From positions 248,001-312,000 of the forward strand of contig NZ_NFLV01000001.1 in the NCBI RefSeq assembly GCF_002161065.1: a stretch of DNA of 64,000 bases. Direction: 5' to 3'. Below the pieces are notes generated by a model that worked only from the letters and a program-made list of their open reading frames with translations, searched no databases and was not told the DNA's origin. Made by a program: the position numbers and the translations under genes. Positions within the stretch are counted from its first letter, which is position 1, and each line of letters opens with the position of its first letter. Source of the stretch: Eubacterium sp. An11. GTDB lineage: Bacteria > Bacillota > Clostridia > Lachnospirales > Lachnospiraceae. Positions 29,083 through 36,944 of this stretch are shown piece after piece.

Positions 29083-29130
29083 GAAAAGAATAAGGTGGAG
29101 CAGAAACCTGTTCCGCCTTATTCTTTTTTT
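29083..29130. terminator. Bidirectional terminator, kinase and MATE genes
   Basis: AGAATAAGGTGGA (29087-29099) pairs with TCCGCCTTATTCT (29112-29124, one G-U), flanked by A and T runs. It separates convergent operons. Confidence 0.8.
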
Positions 29131-30536
29131 GTGTGTGATATATTCTTTTTGTCAGAAACGGTGGAAATACCGGATGTACTTTTTTTGGAGGAAAGCTCCG
29201 GAAGCACCGTGAGAAGCATGGTGATAAAGCAGGCACAGCCGCCCAGAAGGTTGGATATAGGTTCTGCCCAGAATACTCCGTCGGTGCCAAGACCCGCCAG
29301 TCCCGGCAGCAGGATGGTGAGGGGAACGACGATGATCGCTTTCCGGAGCAGGGAAAAGAAGGTGGCATATCCGGATTTGCCGAGAGCCACAAAGACGCTC
29401 TGTCCTGTAAACTGCAGGGCCATAAAGCAGAATCCGAAAAAGTAAATGTGCAGGGCGGGGATGCCCTGGGCCAGCAGATCCGGATTGTCATTGAAAATCC
29501 GGATGAAAAATGCCGGGATCAGTTTCAGAATCCCCCACATAAATAAAGTGTAGGCCACGCAGACAATGGTGGTGAACTTGATAGCCTTCTTCACTTTCTG
29601 ATATGCGCCTTCTCCGTAGTTAAAACTGATGACCGGGGAGGCGCCGTTGGTAAATCCCTGCACCGGCATGGTGCAGATATCCCGCACGGAATTCAGCACC
29701 GTCATGATACCCACATACAGATCGCCCCCGTACACCTGAAGGGTGGCATTGCAGACGACCTGTACCAGACTGTTGGTAAATGCCATAAAAAATCCGGATA
29801 CACCAAGACCCAGGATCTTTTTTACTTTTGCCCCCTGCAGACGGAGCGTACTCTTTCTCAGATGAAGTACGGCCCGTTTCCCCGTGAGAAAACGCAGCAC
29901 CCAGAGGGCCGAACACAGCTGGGAGAGAACGGTGGCGATGGCAGCCCCGGAGACGCCCAGACCAAAGACAAAGATAAACAGCGGGTCCAGAATGATATTT
30001 AACACTGCGCCAATTAAGATCGTGAGCATTCCCATGCTGCCGAATCCCTGGCAGTTAATGAAAGGATTCATTCCCACGGAGATCATCACGAAAATGGTTC
30101 CCAGCAGGTAAATGCGTATGTATTCTTCTGCATAGGGAAAGGTGACATCGCTGGCGCCGAACAGGTAAAGGACCGGTTTATAAATGAGCAGACCGATGAC
30201 GGTCAGAACCAGGCCGGTGCCCACCAGTAAAGTAAAAGAATTTCCCATGAAAAGCTCTGCTTCCCGGTCGTCGCCCCGGCCTCTTTCCATGGCGCACAGG
30301 GGCGAACCGCCGTTGCCGTAGAGATAGGTAAAGGCCGATACCAGGGTAATAATGGGAAAACACAGTCCCACGCCGGTGAGGGCGGTGGTGCCGATTTCCG
30401 GAATCTTTCCAATGTAAATGCGGTCCACCACATTATAAAGCAGATTTAAAAGCTGTGCGAAAATCATCGGCACAGCCACTTCACAGATATTTCTGTATAC
30501 ATTTCCTGTTGAAAAATCTGTCTGATGCGACTTCAT
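29118..30536 (-). CDS. MATE family efflux transporter
   Basis: 472 residues, hydrophobic throughout with about twelve predicted membrane helices, as in cation-coupled multidrug exporters of the MATE family. The N-terminal repeat shows VAVPMIFAQLLNLLYNVVDR, and the GMNPFINCQGFG segment is typical of the middle repeat. The start ATG overlaps the stop of the HxlR gene by four bases, so the two are one operon. The tail overlaps the bidirectional terminator. Exported compounds are unknown; the regulator suggests electrophiles or redox-active drugs. Confidence 0.93.
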   Translation of the reverse strand: MKSHQTDFSTGNVYRNICEVAVPMIFAQLLNLLYNVVDRIYIGKIPEIGTTALTGVGLCFPIITLVSAFTYLYGNGGSPLCAMERGRGDDREAELFMGNSFTLLVGTGLVLTVIGLLIYKPVLYLFGASDVTFPYAEEYIRIYLLGTIFVMISVGMNPFINCQGFGSMGMLTILIGAVLNIILDPLFIFVFGLGVSGAAIATVLSQLCSALWVLRFLTGKRAVLHLRKSTLRLQGAKVKKILGLGVSGFFMAFTNSLVQVVCNATLQVYGGDLYVGIMTVLNSVRDICTMPVQGFTNGASPVISFNYGEGAYQKVKKAIKFTTIVCVAYTLFMWGILKLIPAFFIRIFNDNPDLLAQGIPALHIYFFGFCFMALQFTGQSVFVALGKSGYATFFSLLRKAIIVVPLTILLPGLAGLGTDGVFWAEPISNLLGGCACFITMLLTVLPELSSKKSTSGISTVSDKKNISHTKKE

Positions 30537-30886
30537 GACATTTCCTTCTTTCCTCCGTCTGTTTCCAGACTGGCCTTATAATTATTTCCCCACTGTTCCA
30601 TGGCGTCCAGAATCGGCTTCATGGATTCGCCCAGTTTGGAGAGACTGTATTCCACCCGCGGAGGCATCTCCGGATAGACGGTGCGCACGATAATGCCATC
30701 CTCCTCCATGGAGCGGAGACTGTCCGTGAGGACTTTCTGGCTGATGCCTTCCAGATTCTTTTTCAGTTCGTTAAAACGCCAGGGGCGCATCTGAAGATTT
30801 CTTATGATCAACAGTTTCCATTTGCTTCCAATGAGCTGTACGGTGGTTGCCACCGGGCATTCCGGCAGTTCTTCTTTTGTCAGCAT
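30533..30886 (-). CDS. HxlR family regulator with N-terminal Cys-Pro
   Basis: 117-residue winged-helix protein (GSKWKLLIIRNLQM, RFNELKKNLEGISQKVLTDSL). Cys10 followed by Pro sits at the position of the redox-sensing cysteine in the YodB and HypR members of the family, which react to electrophiles or hypochlorite and control nitroreductases. No other cysteine is present, so a YodB/HypR-like intermolecular or mixed-thiol switch is plausible (inferred). It heads the MATE operon and is divergent from a nitroreductase-like gene. Confidence 0.9.
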   Translation of the reverse strand: MLTKEELPECPVATTVQLIGSKWKLLIIRNLQMRPWRFNELKKNLEGISQKVLTDSLRSMEEDGIIVRTVYPEMPPRVEYSLSKLGESMKPILDAMEQWGNNYKASLETDGGKKEMS

Positions 30887-30982
30887 ATCCTCTCACCTCT
30901 CTTTTGGATTTTGAAATTTGCAGAAAATCCCTGCAATGAAAAATTCCCGTATTGAAATGACGTTTTTCGATGTAACATTTGT

Positions 30983-31078
30983 ATTATAGTCAAGTACGCC
31001 TGAATTTGCAAGGTTACCAAAAGGTAACCAGGGCATAAAAAAGTGCGTACTTTTTTTCTGAAAATGCATTCGTATAAT
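30983..31078. promoter_or_regulatory. Divergent promoters with nested inverted repeats (HxlR site)
   Basis: Minus strand: TTGCAA (31011-31006), 17 nt, TATAAT (30988-30983) for the HxlR operon. Plus strand: TATAAT (31073-31078) without a clear -35. Between them, GGTTACC (31012-31018), AAAA, GGTAACC (31023-31029) forms a perfect dyad, nested within AAGTACGC (30992-30999) and GCGTACTT (31045-31052), almost on the same centre. This is the likely HxlR operator. Confidence 0.65.
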
Positions 31079-31101
31079 GGAGATATAAAGGAGGACAGGA
31101 A

Positions 31102-31581
31102 ATGAACAATATCGCAGGATTTAAAGTGAATGAGGAAAAATGCGTGGGCTGCGGAGTGTGCGTGAAGGTCTGTCCGGGAGCCATTGAGGTTCTCGGTAAA
31201 AAGCCGGAGGACAGTCTTCCTGTGCCGGATATCCCGGAAGCGGAGAGAGTGATCAACGAGCTCATTGCCAATCGTCATTCCTGCCGGCGGTATCAGAACC
31301 GAAACGTGGACTCCGCGATGATAAAAGATATGCTCCGGCGTCTGGGAAATGCTCCCAATGGCGGAAACAAGCAGCAAGTGGAGTTTACACTCATTGATGA
31401 CAGCGAACAGATGCATGTATTTCGGAATCTGGCATATAAAGAAATGGAACGGCTGGCGGAGAAAGGCATTTATCCGCTATGCCAGAGGAACACAGAGAAC
31501 CGTGGAAGAAGGCCGGATTCATCGGCCGGAGATAAAAAAGGCGCCGGGTGGACGGATAAAAAGATAAGGTTAAAGAGATAA
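31102..31581 (+). pseudogene. Truncated ferredoxin-nitroreductase
   Basis: The N-terminus is a [4Fe-4S] site CVGCGVCVKVCPG followed by the start of a nitroreductase domain (ANRHSCRRYQNRNVD, GNAPNGGNKQQVEF). Homology stops after LAEKGIYP near residue 124, whereas family members run to about 270-290 residues. The remaining 35 residues are low-quality. The +1 frame at the same point reads RYARGTQRTVEEGRIHR, which looks like a nitroreductase C-terminal tail. An internal deletion of about 400 bp with frameshift is the simplest reading. The ferredoxin part could still be translated; GGAGG precedes the ATG. Confidence 0.65.
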
Positions 31582-31633
31582 AGAAATTAAAGCAGATATA
31601 AAACAGGATATGTAAAAGAAAGAGGTAGAAAAC

Positions 31634-32401
31634 ATGAACGCACAAAAATGTCTTGATTTATTACGGGAGATAAAGGATGTGGCTTTCGCCACGGTATCAG
31701 AAGATGGGAAACCGCAGATCCGCATCATTGATGTGATGCTGGCGGAAAATGAAAAACTGTATTTCTGCACAGCCCGGGGAAAAGACTTTTATAGACAGTT
31801 GATGGCTTCCGGCGATGTGGCGGTTACCGGGTTGACGAAGGACTGGCAGATGATCCGTCTTGACGGCAGGGCAGAAAAACTGGAAGATCAGAAAATGTGG
31901 ATCGACCGGATATTTGAAGAGAATCCTTCCATGAAAGGGGTTTATCCGGGGGAGAGCCGTTACATTCTGGAACCATTCTGCATCTCTGAAGGGCAGGTGG
32001 AGTTTTTTGACCTGGGGAAGAGTCCCATTTACCGGGCAGCCTTCCGGCTGGGAAGTGATATCAGGACTGAGAAGCAGAATACAGACCAGAGCCGGAACGA
32101 CCGGAAGGCGGCTGAGGCGGTAGCCCCGGTGAAGAAAGGTTTTCTGATCACGGATGCCTGCATCGGCTGTGGAAAATGTGCCGGTCTCTGTCCGCAGCAG
32201 TGCATTGAACCGGGAACACCGTACCGCATCATGCAGGAGCATTGCCTGCACTGTGGATTATGTTTTGAAAACTGCCCGGTTTCGGCCATAGAGAAAAGAT
32301 TGGAAAATGAGAGTGCGGTGCGGAACTGTGAAAAATCCGGGCAAAACAATGAAAATCCGGACAGAGCAAAAAAACAGCAGGAAAAGAGGGATGATTTATG
32401 A
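31634..32401 (+). CDS. PNP-oxidase-like FMN protein fused to 2x[4Fe-4S] ferredoxin
   Basis: 255 residues. Residues 1-135 have the split-barrel of pyridoxamine 5'-phosphate oxidase-like flavoproteins (VAFATVSEDGKPQIRIID, LYFCTARGKDFYRQL). Residues about 170-225 carry two cluster motifs, CIGCGKCAGLCPQQC and CLHCGLCFENCP. The tail is charged. Such fusions probably pass electrons between ferredoxin and a flavin substrate; the reaction is unknown. It is 52 bp after the broken nitroreductase and its stop overlaps the ABC permease start, so it belongs to the same operon. Confidence 0.85.
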   Translation: MNAQKCLDLLREIKDVAFATVSEDGKPQIRIIDVMLAENEKLYFCTARGKDFYRQLMASGDVAVTGLTKDWQMIRLDGRAEKLEDQKMWIDRIFEENPSMKGVYPGESRYILEPFCISEGQVEFFDLGKSPIYRAAFRLGSDIRTEKQNTDQSRNDRKAAEAVAPVKKGFLITDACIGCGKCAGLCPQQCIEPGTPYRIMQEHCLHCGLCFENCPVSAIEKRLENESAVRNCEKSGQNNENPDRAKKQQEKRDDL

Positions 32402-33036
32402 TAACAGAAATCATTGATTTGATACAGAACCGCTGGGATTTCTTTCTGGAGCTTCTTGTGGAGCACATACAGATTTCATTGCTTTCCATCGCCATTGCCA
32501 TGGTGATCGGTCTGATCATTGGAATTGTCATCAGCGAATATCAGAAGAGTTCCAGGATTGTCATTGGAATCGTCAATTTCATTTACACGATTCCTTCCAT
32601 TTCCCTGCTGGGATTTCTGATCCCGCTGTCGGGAGTGGGAGATACCACGGCGGTCATCGCCCTGACGGTCTACGCGCTGCTTCCCATGGTGAGAAATACC
32701 CACACCGGTCTTACCAATGTAAGTCCTCTGCTGCTGGAAGCAGCCACAGGTATGGGAAGCACACGCCTGCAGACCCTGGTGAAAGTCAGGCTGCCGCTGG
32801 CGATGCCGGTGATCATTTCTGGGATCCGGAACATGGCGGTCATGACCATCGCTCTGGCAGGTATCGCCTCTTTTATCGGAGCAGGCGGACTGGGGGTGGC
32901 CATCTACCGGGGAATCACCACCAACAACAAAGCCATGACGCTGGTGGGCAGTCTTTTGATCGCTGTTTTGGCCATTGTGGTGGATGTCCTCATCGGACAG
33001 GTGGAAAAAAAGACAAAACGGCATAGCGTTGCATAA
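32398..33036 (+). CDS. Glycine betaine/choline-type ABC permease
   Basis: 212 residues with about six membrane helices and the ABC permease EAA loop (EAATGMGSTRLQTLVKVRLPLAMP). FIYTIPSISLLGFLIPLSGVG (in pieces, YTIPSISLLGFLIPL) is typical of OpuCB/OpuCD proteins. Import of betaine, carnitine, choline or related quaternary amines is the family role. The start overlaps the preceding stop by four bases. Only one permease gene is present, so it would act as a homodimer. Confidence 0.88.
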   Translation: MITEIIDLIQNRWDFFLELLVEHIQISLLSIAIAMVIGLIIGIVISEYQKSSRIVIGIVNFIYTIPSISLLGFLIPLSGVGDTTAVIALTVYALLPMVRNTHTGLTNVSPLLLEAATGMGSTRLQTLVKVRLPLAMPVIISGIRNMAVMTIALAGIASFIGAGGLGVAIYRGITTNNKAMTLVGSLLIAVLAIVVDVLIGQVEKKTKRHSVA

Positions 33037-33105
33037 AAGTGGTTGGAAAAATCATAAAAACGGAATAGCAGGAAAACAGTCAAAGGTATAAAGAGGAGAC
33101 AAAAA

Positions 33106-34095
33106 ATGGGGAAATTTGAAAAGAAGTGTAAGAGAGAAGAAAATGTGAAGATCTGCGGCCTGAAAACAGAGAATATCAGCAAAATTTCAGCTGACAGAAA
33201 AAGAGGAGGCTTAAAAAAAGGAGCGGCTTTGCTGCTGACAGCCATTACCGCAGCGGGAATTCTTACCGGATGCGGACAGAGCAGTCAGACCATCCGTATG
33301 GCAACGAAACCCATGACGGAGCAGTACATTATAGGGAGTATGATGAAGACTCTCATTGAGCAGAATACGGATCTGACGGTGGAGATCACGGAGGGTGTGG
33401 GCGGCGGCACCGCCAACATTCAGCCGGCCATGGAAGAAGGGGAGTTCGATTTTTATCCGGAGTACACCGGCAGCGGCTGGAATGAAGTATTGAAAGAAGA
33501 AAGCCTTTATGATGAGAGCATGTTTGATCAGCTGCAGGCTGGTTATGAGAAGATGGATATGACCTGGACGGGAATGCTGGGTTTTAATAATACTTACGGT
33601 CTGGTGGTGGCCAGCGATATTGCGAAGAAGTATAATCTGAAAACCTATTCCGATCTGGCGGCGGTATCCGACCAGCTGGTATTCGGAGCAGAGTATGACT
33701 TTTTTGAGCGGGAAGACGGTTATGACGCCCTCTGCGATACCTATGGTCTGACCTTTAAAGATACCATGGATCTGGATATCGGGCTGAAATACGATGCCCT
33801 GGCTCAGAAAGAAATTGATGTGATGAATATTTTCACCACAGACGGACAGCTTTCCACGGCGGATGCGGTGGTTCTGGAGGATGACAAGGGGCTGTATCCA
33901 TCCTATATGTGTGGTTTTGTGGTGAGAAATGAAGTGCTTGAGGATCATCCGGAGCTGCAGCAGGTGTTTGACAAGGTGGAGAATCTGATCACAGACGCAG
34001 AGATGGCAAAGATGAATGATCAGGTGGAGACCGAAGGACGGGAGCCGGAAGATGTGGCCAGCGCATTTTTACAGGAAAAAGGGCTGCTGGAGTAA
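33106..34095 (+). CDS. Osmoprotectant-type ABC substrate-binding lipoprotein
   Basis: 329 residues. An unusually long charged N-terminus (about 40 residues) precedes the signal sequence ALLLTAITAAGILTGC, whose Cys is the lipid site. The mature part has the OpuCC/OsmX signature region (ATKPMTEQYIIGSMM, VGGGTANIQPAMEEGEFDFY, EYTGSGW). It should capture a quaternary ammonium compound and deliver it to the permease encoded just upstream. AGAGGAG precedes ATG 33106; a start nearer the signal peptide is not excluded. Confidence 0.88.
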   Translation: MGKFEKKCKREENVKICGLKTENISKISADRKRGGLKKGAALLLTAITAAGILTGCGQSSQTIRMATKPMTEQYIIGSMMKTLIEQNTDLTVEITEGVGGGTANIQPAMEEGEFDFYPEYTGSGWNEVLKEESLYDESMFDQLQAGYEKMDMTWTGMLGFNNTYGLVVASDIAKKYNLKTYSDLAAVSDQLVFGAEYDFFEREDGYDALCDTYGLTFKDTMDLDIGLKYDALAQKEIDVMNIFTTDGQLSTADAVVLEDDKGLYPSYMCGFVVRNEVLEDHPELQQVFDKVENLITDAEMAKMNDQVETEGREPEDVASAFLQEKGLLE

Positions 34096-34111
34096 TAGAG
34101 GTGACAAACAT

Positions 34112-34897
34112 ATGAGTATCATAGAATATAAAAATATCTGTATGGCCTATGGAGAGAAGACGATCATCGAAAACTTTAATCTTTCCATTGAAAAAGGGGA
34201 GTTTGTCACTATCATCGGCTCTTCGGGCTGCGGAAAAACGACGATCCTGAAAATGGTAAACGGGCTGGTGGAGCCCGTGAGCGGGGAAGTCCTGGTGGAA
34301 GGAAACAGTACCCGGCAGGCAGATCTGACCATGCTGCGCCGCAACATCGGCTATGCCATCCAGGGAAGCGTGCTGTTTCCGCATATGACGGTGGAGAAAA
34401 ATATCGCCTATGTGCCGAATCTGCTCAACAAAAAAGATAAAAAGCGGACAGAGCAGGCAGTCACAAAGTGGATGAACATCGTGGGGCTGGAAGATTCCCT
34501 GCGCGGCCGTTATCCGGCGGAACTGTCCGGCGGACAGCAGCAGAGGGTCGGTATCGCCCGGGCGCTGGCGGCGTCTCCGGATATCCTGCTGATGGATGAG
34601 CCTTTCGGGGCGGTGGATGAGATCACCAGAGGCAGTCTGCAGGAGGAAATCGCCCGGATCCACCGGGAGACGGGGATCACGATTCTCTTTGTCACCCATG
34701 ACATTGGAGAAGCATTAAAATTGGGGACAAAGGTTCTGGTGATGGATGCGGGCAGTATCCAGCAGTTTGCTCCGCCCCATGAGATTCTCCACGCACCGGC
34801 TACGGAATATGTAAAAAAACTGGTGGAAAAAGAGCGCCGGCGATGCCATTTGCCGGAGGAAAAACTGGGGGACTGTGAGTACAGCGGCGCAGTCTGA
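34112..34897 (+). CDS. Osmoprotectant-type ABC ATP-binding protein
   Basis: 261 residues. Walker A GSSGCGKTT near 37-45, Q-loop region, signature LSGGQQQRVGIARALA, Walker B ILLMDEPFGAVD and switch His in FVTHD. It is closest in style to OpuCA but ends after about 260 residues and lacks the C-terminal CBS domains that sense ionic strength in OpuCA. The frame is open 32 codons upstream; AGAGGTGAC sets ATG 34112. It completes the permease, binding protein, ATPase set. Confidence 0.9.
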   Translation: MSIIEYKNICMAYGEKTIIENFNLSIEKGEFVTIIGSSGCGKTTILKMVNGLVEPVSGEVLVEGNSTRQADLTMLRRNIGYAIQGSVLFPHMTVEKNIAYVPNLLNKKDKKRTEQAVTKWMNIVGLEDSLRGRYPAELSGGQQQRVGIARALAASPDILLMDEPFGAVDEITRGSLQEEIARIHRETGITILFVTHDIGEALKLGTKVLVMDAGSIQQFAPPHEILHAPATEYVKKLVEKERRRCHLPEEKLGDCEYSGAV

Positions 34898-35012
34898 GGA
34901 TCCTGGCCATCGGGGATGCAACAGGATAGTTTGAGAATTCCGGCAGCTGGGGATATGGCGGGAGAGCCTGAAAGCCGCGCGCATACAGTTTATCAGAGAG
35001 AGGTGGATCGGA

Positions 35013-36050
35013 ATGTTTTTGGAAAAATTACAAAAAAGAAAGGAAAAGAAAACGAATAAGGTAACTGATTTCACAGCCGGCAAAACAGCCGGAAACAGCG
35101 ACGGACGGAACCTTCAGAAGAAATGGCAGATAAAGCCGGATGGCGAAAAAAAGGCTGTGATATTAAAACACGCCATAGAATCCGCGGACGCCGTGGTGAT
35201 CGGCGCCGGTTCCGGTCTTTCCACTTCGGCGGGCTTTACCTATACGGGAGACCGCTTCCGGAAATATTTTGGGGATTTTGCGGAAAAATATGGTTTTGAG
35301 GATATGTACTCCGGTGGGTTTTATCCTTTTGATTCTCTGGAAGAATACTGGGCTTACTGGAGCCGCTACATTTATATCAACCGCTACATGAATGCGCTGA
35401 AACCGGTATATGAGCAGCTCTTAAAGCTGGTGAAAAACAAAGACTATTTTGTCCTCACCACCAACGTGGATCACTGTTTTCAGAAGGCGGGTTTTGACAA
35501 AAAGCGTCTGTTCTATACCCAGGGCGATTATGGTCTCTGGCAGTGTTCCGGGCCGTGTCACCGGGAAACCTACGATAACGAAAGCCAGGTGGAAGAGATG
35601 CTGAAAGCTCAGGGATTTCTTTTTGGGGAAAGCGGAGAAAAAGAAAAACTTGCTCTGCCCAAGGGGAAGAAGACCGGGATGCGGATACCGACAGAACTTA
35701 TCCCCCGCTGCCCGCGGTGCGGACGTCCCATGAGCATGAATCTGCGCGCCGACAACACGTTTGTGGAAGATGAGGGATGGCACTGGGCGGCGGAAAGATA
35801 CAGCGAATTCCTGCGACGCCACCGGAATCTTAAAACAGTCTATCTGGAGCTTGGGACCGGAATGAACACGCCGTCTATCATTAAATTTAATTTCTGGCGA
35901 ATGACCGGCAGGCAGCCGGATGCGGTATACGGATGTATCAATCTGGGCGAAGCCTGGGCTCCGGATGAAATCAAGGACAAATCCATCTGTATCAATGCGG
36001 ATATCGGACAGACACTGCAGGAAATGTCAGAAACAGGGGTGAGAAAATGA
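35013..36050 (+). CDS. SirTM-type sirtuin, probable protein ADP-ribosyltransferase
   Basis: 345 residues of the class M sirtuins, which ADP-ribosylate proteins instead of deacetylating them. The NAD site GAGSGLSTSAGFTYTGDRF is near 62-81. TTNVDHCFQKAGF follows. The catalytic His of deacetylases is replaced: the motif reads FYTQGDYG, with Gln. Zinc-ribbon cysteines are CSGPC and CPRCG. ELGTGMNTPSIIKFNFW closes the fold. Known SirTM genes sit with a macrodomain eraser, GcvH-L and LplA2. Here the macrodomain gene overlaps by four bases, but no lipoyl genes are near. It starts 115 bp after the ABC ATPase gene, probably in the same operon. Confidence 0.88.
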   Translation: MFLEKLQKRKEKKTNKVTDFTAGKTAGNSDGRNLQKKWQIKPDGEKKAVILKHAIESADAVVIGAGSGLSTSAGFTYTGDRFRKYFGDFAEKYGFEDMYSGGFYPFDSLEEYWAYWSRYIYINRYMNALKPVYEQLLKLVKNKDYFVLTTNVDHCFQKAGFDKKRLFYTQGDYGLWQCSGPCHRETYDNESQVEEMLKAQGFLFGESGEKEKLALPKGKKTGMRIPTELIPRCPRCGRPMSMNLRADNTFVEDEGWHWAAERYSEFLRRHRNLKTVYLELGTGMNTPSIIKFNFWRMTGRQPDAVYGCINLGEAWAPDEIKDKSICINADIGQTLQEMSETGVRK

Positions 36051-36826
36051 CACAAAAAGAAAAGCGGGAATATCTGATTCAGGAATTGTTGTCGGAATTT
36101 CCTCCATATAGAGATATGAAAATACCTGACAGTGAGGAGGAGCAAAAAGGACTGCTCCGCAGTCTGATGAATGTCCGTCCGCCCCGTCCGGCAAAAGAAG
36201 AATTCCTCAGGATACAGGACGAATATCTTCAGGAAGAGACGGCAGAAAAGGGAATCACAGACAGCGAGCTGCTGCCGCCGTCTTCTCTGGACGGCCGTCT
36301 GGTATTGTGGCGGGGCGATATCACAACGTTAAAGATTGACGCCATCGTAAACGCTGCCAACAGTGCTCTGAGAGGGTGTTTTGTACCCTGCCATTCCTGT
36401 ATTGATAACATCATCCACACCAATGCGGGCGTTCAGCTCCGGTTGGACTGTGACACGATCATGAATGAGCAGGGCTATGAAGAGCCCACCGGGCAGGCAA
36501 AGATTACACCGGCCTATAATCTGCCTTCCCGCTATGTGATTCATACGGTTGGCCCCATTGTGTCAGGGGAACTTACAAAAAAGCACTGCCGGCAGCTGGC
36601 AGACTGCTACCGTTCCTGCCTTGGACTGGCCGCGGAAAATGGACTGAAAAGTATCGCTTTCTGCTGTATCTCCACAGGAGAGTTTCATTTTCCACAACAG
36701 AAAGCGGCGGAGATCGCGGTGAAGACCGTGCGGGAATATCTGAAACAAGATACATCCATAGAACGAGTCGTGTTTAATGTGTTCAAGCCGGAAGATCAGG
36801 AAATATATCGGGAGATTCTGAAATAA
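36047..36826 (+). CDS. Zinc-type macrodomain protein, ADP-ribosyl hydrolase
   Basis: 259 residues. After about 85 N-terminal residues the macrodomain begins at LVLWRGDITTLKIDAIVNAANS. Residues about 110-128 read CFVPCHSCIDNIIHTNAG; the Cys/His cluster marks the zinc-dependent macrodomain class found with SirTM. PTGQAKITPAYNLPSRYVIHTVGP and the late FCCISTGEFHFP loop complete the ADP-ribose site. It should remove the ADP-ribose added by the overlapping SirTM gene product, making a writer/eraser pair. Confidence 0.92.
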   Translation: MTQKEKREYLIQELLSEFPPYRDMKIPDSEEEQKGLLRSLMNVRPPRPAKEEFLRIQDEYLQEETAEKGITDSELLPPSSLDGRLVLWRGDITTLKIDAIVNAANSALRGCFVPCHSCIDNIIHTNAGVQLRLDCDTIMNEQGYEEPTGQAKITPAYNLPSRYVIHTVGPIVSGELTKKHCRQLADCYRSCLGLAAENGLKSIAFCCISTGEFHFPQQKAAEIAVKTVREYLKQDTSIERVVFNVFKPEDQEIYREILK

Positions 36827-36944
36827 ATCATATCTCATTTTTTCTTCCCTCAGAGAGAATCTGGGGGAAGTCATTTAATTGTCTGACAGAATATATTCTA
36901 TGGTAAGAGAAAGTCAGTGCTGAAAGGAATATCTGTGGAAAGAT

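Follow-up and report, generated by a model that had tools for sequence, protein, structure and literature searches.

The 64,000-nucleotide stretch analysed here (the window; Eubacterium sp. An11, contig NZ_NFLV01000001.1, positions 248,001-312,000) encodes a class M sirtuin (SirTM) together with a zinc-dependent macrodomain hydrolase (Zn-Macro), a pair that writes and erases ADP-ribosylation. According to the available text of PMC11490716, GcvH-L is the sole known SirTM target and other SirTM/Zn-Macro targets were still elusive in 2024. The two genes end a run of plus-strand genes (Table 1) that also encodes PNPOx-Fd, in which a flavin mononucleotide (FMN)-type split barrel is joined to a ferredoxin domain, and an ABC importer resembling EgtU of Helicobacter pylori; the run starts opposite a gene for an HxlR-type regulator. 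Our preferred reading, held tentatively and rated just short of an even chance, is that these genes form an electrophile-induced redox module, that the importer most likely takes up ergothioneine, and that SirTM/Zn-Macro acts on a non-lipoyl target for which PNPOx-Fd is the best candidate. The electrophile-induced redox module is deduced from cysteine sensing by DUF24 regulators combined with the split barrel and the two 4Fe-4S motifs of PNPOx-Fd. The genome (G000) comprises 3.9 Mb in 104 contigs with a completeness of 100, and among named relatives the closest found was Eubacteriaceae bacterium CHKCI004, with a SirTM identity of 79%, although that search may omit records very close to the genome of the window.

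By its sequence, the product of 35013-36050 is a class M sirtuin. The features given for this class in the available text of PMC4518038 are QG in place of the catalytic HG, Asn118 and Arg192, and the motif GVGx[NT]TP. The window protein reads YTQGDYG, its Q125 and G126 being shared by all 18 aligned rows; the equivalents of Asn118 and Arg192 are the N of TTNVDH and the R of MNLR, which align with 5a3a under a presumed numbering offset of 10, and the motif GTGMNTP has T in the position of V. The protein matches this same 5a3a, SirTM of Streptococcus pyogenes (4.4e-62). Zn-Macro has the Cx4HxC loop (CFVPCHSC), Dx3H (DNIIH) and NAAN listed for its family along with an N-terminal extension (PMC11490716, in part), and NF003163 spans its residues 2-259.

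The genome contains a single SirTM, and the initial annotation had reported GcvH-L and LplA2 as absent from the operon. A genome-wide search bears this out, with no match to GcvH (PF01597) or to the LplA catalytic domain (PF21948) in G000, where the lone PF03099 match looks by eye like a BirA-type biotin ligase. A GcvH profile built from 12 relatives had no match in the open reading frames of the window or of the 190 fetched loci (E 0.01). In a set of 99 related genomes, SirTM was found in 39 at E <=1e-20, G000 included (50 at E 0.001), and strong GcvH (E <1e-30) in 14 (44 at E 0.001, the remainder being weak, <=30 bits). Five of the 39 SirTM genomes have a strong GcvH, in no case near SirTM by coordinates, and no association between the two genes was detected among the 99 relatives (Fisher p = 1).

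PNPOx-Fd, by comparison, recurs with SirTM. All 44 aligned members match PF01243 and Fer4 (E <=0.01); the AF2 model of the window protein (pLDDT 87.5) has 2hhz and 2ig6 as its nearest folds, consistent with an FMN-type split barrel, and two 4Fe-4S motifs are present. At E <=1e-25 PNPOx-Fd occurs in 21 of the 99 related genomes, 20 of which carry SirTM (Fisher 2.6e-9, not corrected for phylogeny), and in 23 loci it lies directly next to Zn-Macro, the median gap being 3 bp. As a redox protein with hardly any occurrence outside SirTM genomes, and one often encoded in the SirTM operon, it represents a concrete and testable candidate for a SirTM target. An apparent fusion of PNPOx-Fd with Zn-Macro in L096 was rejected as a frameshifted PNPOx-Fd frame reading into Zn-Macro.

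The neighbourhood of SirTM was surveyed in 120 fetched loci, namely 40 (L031-L070) picked from the 99 relatives and the best 80 (L072-L151) of at least 582 stretches; removal of a duplicate (L072, identical to L031) left 119. Because these loci were picked or best-scoring, the set is biased towards relatives of the window's SirTM. Neighbours were counted with hidden Markov models built from the same loci with hand-set thresholds, the gene caller of the first neighbour listings having missed some overlapping genes, and some genomes belong to more than one of the genome sets used here. Zn-Macro lies within 4 kb of 89 of these 119 distinct best-scoring loci, PNPOx-Fd of 42 and HxlR of 39, while an Rrf2 regulator is near 19 and a YwnB-like NAD(P)H-binding protein near 9. 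The near flanks (913 kb) contain 43 PNPOx-Fd and 39 HxlR genes against none and 3, respectively, in the far flanks (>5 kb, 715 kb), where Rrf2 and YwnB-like genes number 2 and 1.

The HxlR protein of the window has a single cysteine, Cys10, followed by Pro, and the N-terminal cysteine column is occupied by C in 38 of 40 aligned rows. In DUF24 proteins the conserved N-terminal cysteine senses electrophiles or oxidants (PMC7835342, in the text available), suggesting the same mode and signal for this regulator. The initial annotation had matched Cys10-Pro to the redox sensors YodB and HypR; the conserved cysteine stands, and the likeness holds at the family level only, with one Cys and with scores against the NCBIfam models RrpB and RrpA (117.8 and 92 bits) under the cut-offs of 175 and 185. 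Formaldehyde sensing was rejected, since the Cys11-x-Lys13 pair of B. subtilis (PMC7835342, in part) is absent and the window reads Cys10-Pro-Val. The divergent HxlR-MATE arrangement is present as annotated; however, among the SirTM-neighbourhood loci listed, MATE lies beside HxlR only in the window's genus (L031-L033), so it is not part of the core.

Two palindromes separate HxlR from the plus-strand genes. With up to 2 mismatches, M1 (AAAGTGCGTACTTT) and M2 each occur in 23 of 55 HxlR upstream regions, against 0.75 and 0.8, respectively, expected by chance from stretches drawn at random from the same loci, and where both occur (13 regions) they show a spacing of 27 bp in 10 cases, 28 bp in 2 and a different one in the last. 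M1 occurs once in the 3.9 Mb of G000 (<=1 mismatch), and exact M1 was found at 30 sites in 29 of 397 genomes, the window included, against 20 sites for a reversed control. HxlR is within 1.5 kb of 15 of the 30 sites, and SirTM, Zn-Macro or PNPOx-Fd within 1.5 kb of 9, the window being one of them and L235 being counted on a partial 87-bit match. The double palindrome, next to HxlR and at the presumed module promoter, is thus conserved and operator-like, and represents a putative operator.

The importer was annotated initially as OpuC-like, but its substrate-binding protein (SBP) is nearer to H. pylori EgtU (231 bits) than to OpuBC/OpuCC (<=157 bits); pneumococcal EgtUC scores 153-167 bits. For a fused orthologue of the importer, H. 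pylori EgtU scores 250 bits versus 209. The SBP model (AF2 pLDDT 95.2) has as its best structure match 8dp6 (TM 0.92), which, judging by the structure titles, is H. pylori EgtU, with 8dp7 its ergothioneine complex; the two share the fold of the window SBP and represent its nearest solved relative. The importer tree, which does not include pneumococcal EgtU, places H. pylori EgtU in one group with the importers of the module and the split sisters of these (100/98, on a long branch) and separates it from the rows of sensors and OpuF-like importers. Permease and SBP are encoded separately in the window and fused in the orthologues, where the SBP open frames span 511-526 amino acids in 16 of 17 cases and the last (L185) lies at a contig edge.

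Orthologues of the importer were sought in 397 genomes of the family, and contexts were retrieved for 38 of 70 non-window places (32 best and 6 lower). Among the 17 nearest orthologues, all outside the genus, PNPOx-Fd is adjacent in 14, SirTM or Zn-Macro near in 8 and HxlR in 7; 15 split sister importers have 1, 0 and 0 of these neighbours, and 6 OpuF-like importers none. The nearest 17 thus differ from the 21 more distant importers in PNPOx-Fd (14 vs 1, Fisher 9e-7) and SirTM/Zn-Macro (8 vs 0, Fisher 5e-4; 8/17 vs 1/22, Fisher 0.005, if L218 is added, which was fetched for its SirTM and excluded from the 21). SirTM follows the ATPase in the window, L184, L192 and L196, Zn-Macro follows it in L190 and L195, and SirTM precedes PNPOx-Fd in L187 and L189. 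In L190 a 98-amino-acid frame after Zn-Macro (1105-1401) has a SirTM-like start and then breaks off, by eye a SirTM remnant beside the importer. In L218 (G044), HxlR, SirTM and Zn-Macro are followed by a permease, an SBP, a 317-amino-acid frame, an ATPase and a permease, a second and non-orthologous importer association.

Ergothioneine is the likeliest substrate of this importer, although this is uncertain. Transport of an osmolyte or a different quaternary amine instead (betaine, choline or carnitine), with the importer recruited to the operon for osmotic or bile stress, is a serious possibility that we place somewhat below even. The family is OpuAC, choline-type sensor proteins rank second by a small distance (precursors <=201 bits, TM 0.90), and in L218 SirTM/Zn-Macro are followed by another OpuC-type set. 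The criteria given for pneumococcal EgtU, G244 and the F293/Y337 switch (PMC9732360, in part), correspond to M, Y and F in the window SBP under the presumed mapping, so that neither G244 nor the Y-to-F switch is present. P at 243 and G at 274 also differ from wild-type pneumococcal EgtU; these do not exclude ergothioneine, as the same residues occur in mutant EgtUC structures that are ergothioneine-bound according to their titles. Of 14 pocket columns, 12 in the window have the residue of H. pylori EgtU; the 17 orthologues share 10-13 with it, the split sisters 10-12 and the OpuF-like importers 10-11. With so little separation between the groups of importers, the columns count as weak evidence and were rejected as proof of ergothioneine. 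Against an osmolyte importer stand the sequence and structure matches, which are both best for H. pylori EgtU, and its place in the tree. The disagreement concerns one step and can be combined with either view of the SirTM target. Breakdown of ergothioneine through an ergothionase-type lyase was considered and rejected; no aromatic-lyase match (PF00221) was found in G000, making catabolism by that route unlikely.

For the electrophile-induced module as a whole, we infer the following order of events and direction of switching. HxlR with reduced Cys10 would occupy the double operator (31013-31053) and repress transcription in both directions, towards HxlR-MATE and towards the module genes, until modification of Cys10 by a quinone, another electrophile or an oxidant releases it. 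The derepressed operon would yield PNPOx-Fd as a flavin/iron-sulfur redox protein, the EgtU-like importer would take up a solute with a quaternary ammonium group, for which the antioxidant ergothioneine is the likeliest candidate, and SirTM and Zn-Macro would reversibly ADP-ribosylate a protein other than lipoyl-GcvH, with PNPOx-Fd of the same operon as the best candidate. The different protein target suggested in the initial annotation is thus a plausible idea. If the importer step is true, it would link ADP-ribosylation in bacteria with the uptake of ergothioneine-type antioxidants by gut anaerobes. A broader version, which makes PNPOx-Fd the substrate class still missing for SirTM/Zn-Macro pairs that work without GcvH, with its activity switched by reversible ADP-ribosylation in electrophile stress and coupled to ergothioneine import, seems to us unlikely.

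Several counts weigh against the module with PNPOx-Fd as target. None of HxlR, Rrf2, PNPOx-Fd and YwnB-like genes is present at 47 of the 119 SirTM loci, and 19 of the 39 SirTM genomes among the relatives lack PNPOx-Fd; PNPOx-Fd is therefore not a universal target, and loci without it require another one. An ATPase of the type found in the window importer is near only 8 of the 119 loci, one of them (L040) belonging to a non-orthologous importer, and of the 8 importer orthologues with the pair nearby 2 have both genes, 4 SirTM alone and 2 Zn-Macro alone. The initial annotation had named a lack of conservation of the importer association as grounds for refutation; the association of the importer with flavin/ferredoxin proteins does recur outside the genus, yet of 11 further genomes of the genus with fetched SirTM loci only 3 have importer and SirTM side by side. 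On the SirTM tree, made by a quick method with SH-aLRT support only, the importer-linked SirTMs (11 of 119 rows) are scattered, with 8 changes of which at least 4 are forced, but are more clustered than shuffled labels (mean 10.6 changes). Furthermore, 8 of the 30 M1 sites precede an ACGX-type radical-SAM gene (two confirmed by NCBIfam, the others by eye).

A rival view is co-regulation alone, with SirTM/Zn-Macro, PNPOx-Fd and the importer acting in parallel within one electrophile-stress regulon and the SirTM target being unlinked. The partners vary between loci, where the regulator may be HxlR or Rrf2 and each of PNPOx-Fd, the YwnB-like protein and the importer may be present or absent, and M1 stands before the ACGX system as well. 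Such co-regulation is possible, although it falls clearly short of even; the near confinement of PNPOx-Fd to SirTM genomes and its tight abutment with Zn-Macro speak against it. A chance neighbourhood, brought about by a mobile SirTM pair that was acquired horizontally next to an importer operon, is very improbable: near-identical importers do carry different SirTMs (window versus G022, L033: SBP 93%, SirTM 70% identical, an apparent replacement in place), but an exchange of this kind at a single site points to selection for having a SirTM there, and the linkage is enriched over the far flanks and recurs across several genera with differing gene orders.

As seen in the portions of the literature available, a 2015 paper (PMC4518038) described SirTM/macrodomain operons of the independent type and listed Lachnospiraceae as carrying SirTM, and lone pairs have been named in E. 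faecalis and Treponema pedis (PMC4518038, PMC11490716). The absence of GcvH-L is therefore not new in itself, and the initial statement that known SirTM operons carry GcvH-L and LplA2 applies to one extended type (Lactobacillales, Staphylococcaceae) but not to the independent operons. The extended operon of S. aureus and S. pyogenes resembles the window in its SirTM and Zn-Macro genes, its linked flavin oxidoreductases and its redox-stress theme. The window differs in lacking GcvH-L and LplA2, in PNPOx-Fd replacing OYE/LLM, and in its EgtU-like importer and its HxlR with a conserved double palindrome. With the independent operons it shares a pair without GcvH-L; PNPOx-Fd, HxlR or Rrf2, YwnB-like and importer partners are not described for these in the available text of the two papers. 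A literature search for SirTM with HxlR found no publication and one for SirTM with ferredoxin a single review, and within the literature searched the recurring partnership of HxlR, PNPOx-Fd and the EgtU-like importer with SirTM appears to be new. The pneumococcal egtU operon includes a dithiol MarR regulator (PMC9732360, in part), comparable to HxlR here; the window differs from this system in its split permease and SBP, in addition to the residues at positions 244 and 293. The SifR/YwnB quinone regulon of S. pneumoniae (PMC9218516, in part) follows a similar single-Cys repressor logic, with Rrf2 in place of HxlR and with a catechol dioxygenase, which is not among the module genes of the window. 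Similar Rrf2 and NAD(P)H-binding proteins occur at some SirTM loci: in L192, L183 and L245, Rrf2 or PF13460 genes resembling this regulon lie near SirTM, Zn-Macro or M1, the Rrf2 regulators of L192 and L183 having HypR as best NCBIfam match (under cut-off) and L192 and L245 encoding the PF13460 proteins.

Every gene named in the initial annotation of 29118-36826 was found in its place. The seven consecutive plus-strand genes or remnants are also present, with small gaps and overlaps as described (52, -4, 69, 16, 115 and -4 bp from the remnant through Zn-Macro), but the first is truncated at both ends, as it aligns with residues 54-164 alone of a 296-residue 2[4Fe-4S]-nitroreductase (L128). Between ATPase and SirTM, where the window has 115 bp, G020 (L031) has 10 bp and G022 (L033) 45 bp. 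The initial annotation had named an internal promoter at 34.9-35.0 kb, together with a SirTM pair next to GcvH-L/LplA2 elsewhere, as grounds for refutation; the consensus scan found no promoter-like site there. It placed plus-strand promoter-like sites within the importer genes at 33116, 33608 and 34188, such sites being as frequent in shuffled sequence (9 found vs 9.3 expected), and three weak terminator-like sites of 5-7 pairs inside the operon at 32795, 35245 and 36669.

Table 1. Features of the SirTM/Zn-Macro locus and its divergent HxlR-MATE genes (window coordinates).
Feature	Position	Strand	Basis
MATE family exporter	29118..30536	-	PF01554 6.5e-39; follows HxlR
HxlR/DUF24 regulator	30533..30886	-	PF01638 6e-32; single Cys10-Pro11
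Promoter-like site, HxlR-MATE (TTGCAA, 17 nt, TATAAT)	30983..31011	-	consensus scan
Putative operator half M2, GTTACC-N4-GGTAAC	31013..31028	.	23/55 HxlR upstream regions
Putative operator half M1, AAAGTGCGTACTTT	31040..31053	.	23/55 HxlR upstream regions; overlaps presumed -35
Presumed module promoter	31050..31078	+	TATAAT 31073-31078, weak -35 ~31050; by eye, scan silent
Ferredoxin-nitroreductase remnant	31102..31581	+	ends missing on both sides
PNPOx-Fd	31634..32401	+	FMN-type split barrel + 2[4Fe-4S] ferredoxin; PF01243, Fer4
Importer permease (single)	32398..33036	+	PF00528
Importer SBP, H. pylori EgtU-like	33106..34095	+	8dp6 1.6e-67; structure TM 0.92
Importer ATPase	34112..34897	+	PF00005; start ATG 34112 by homology with L031
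SirTM, class M sirtuin	35013..36050	+	5a3a 4.4e-62; QG, GTGMNTP
Zn-Macro hydrolase	36047..36826	+	NF003163, 363 bits vs cut-off 272; 8rsi 3.7e-83
Terminator-like hairpin after Zn-Macro, 11 pairs	36844..36870	+	consensus scan

Tandem divergent SirTM paralogues, 32-45% identical to that of the window, were observed in L060, L065, L067, L068 and L069; four of these five loci have no Zn-Macro within 4 kb, possibly indicating a second SirTM branch. The loci in which M1 accompanies an ACGX-repeat peptide and a radical-SAM gene are L224, L226, L237, L238, L242, L244, L248 and L250, where the radical-SAM protein belongs to TIGR04340 in L248 and L250, the peptide to TIGR04341 in L250, and the others were recognised by eye. 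M1 ahead of this system, mostly with HxlR adjacent, suggests thiol-stress control of an uncharacterised system resembling those of ribosomally synthesised and post-translationally modified peptides.

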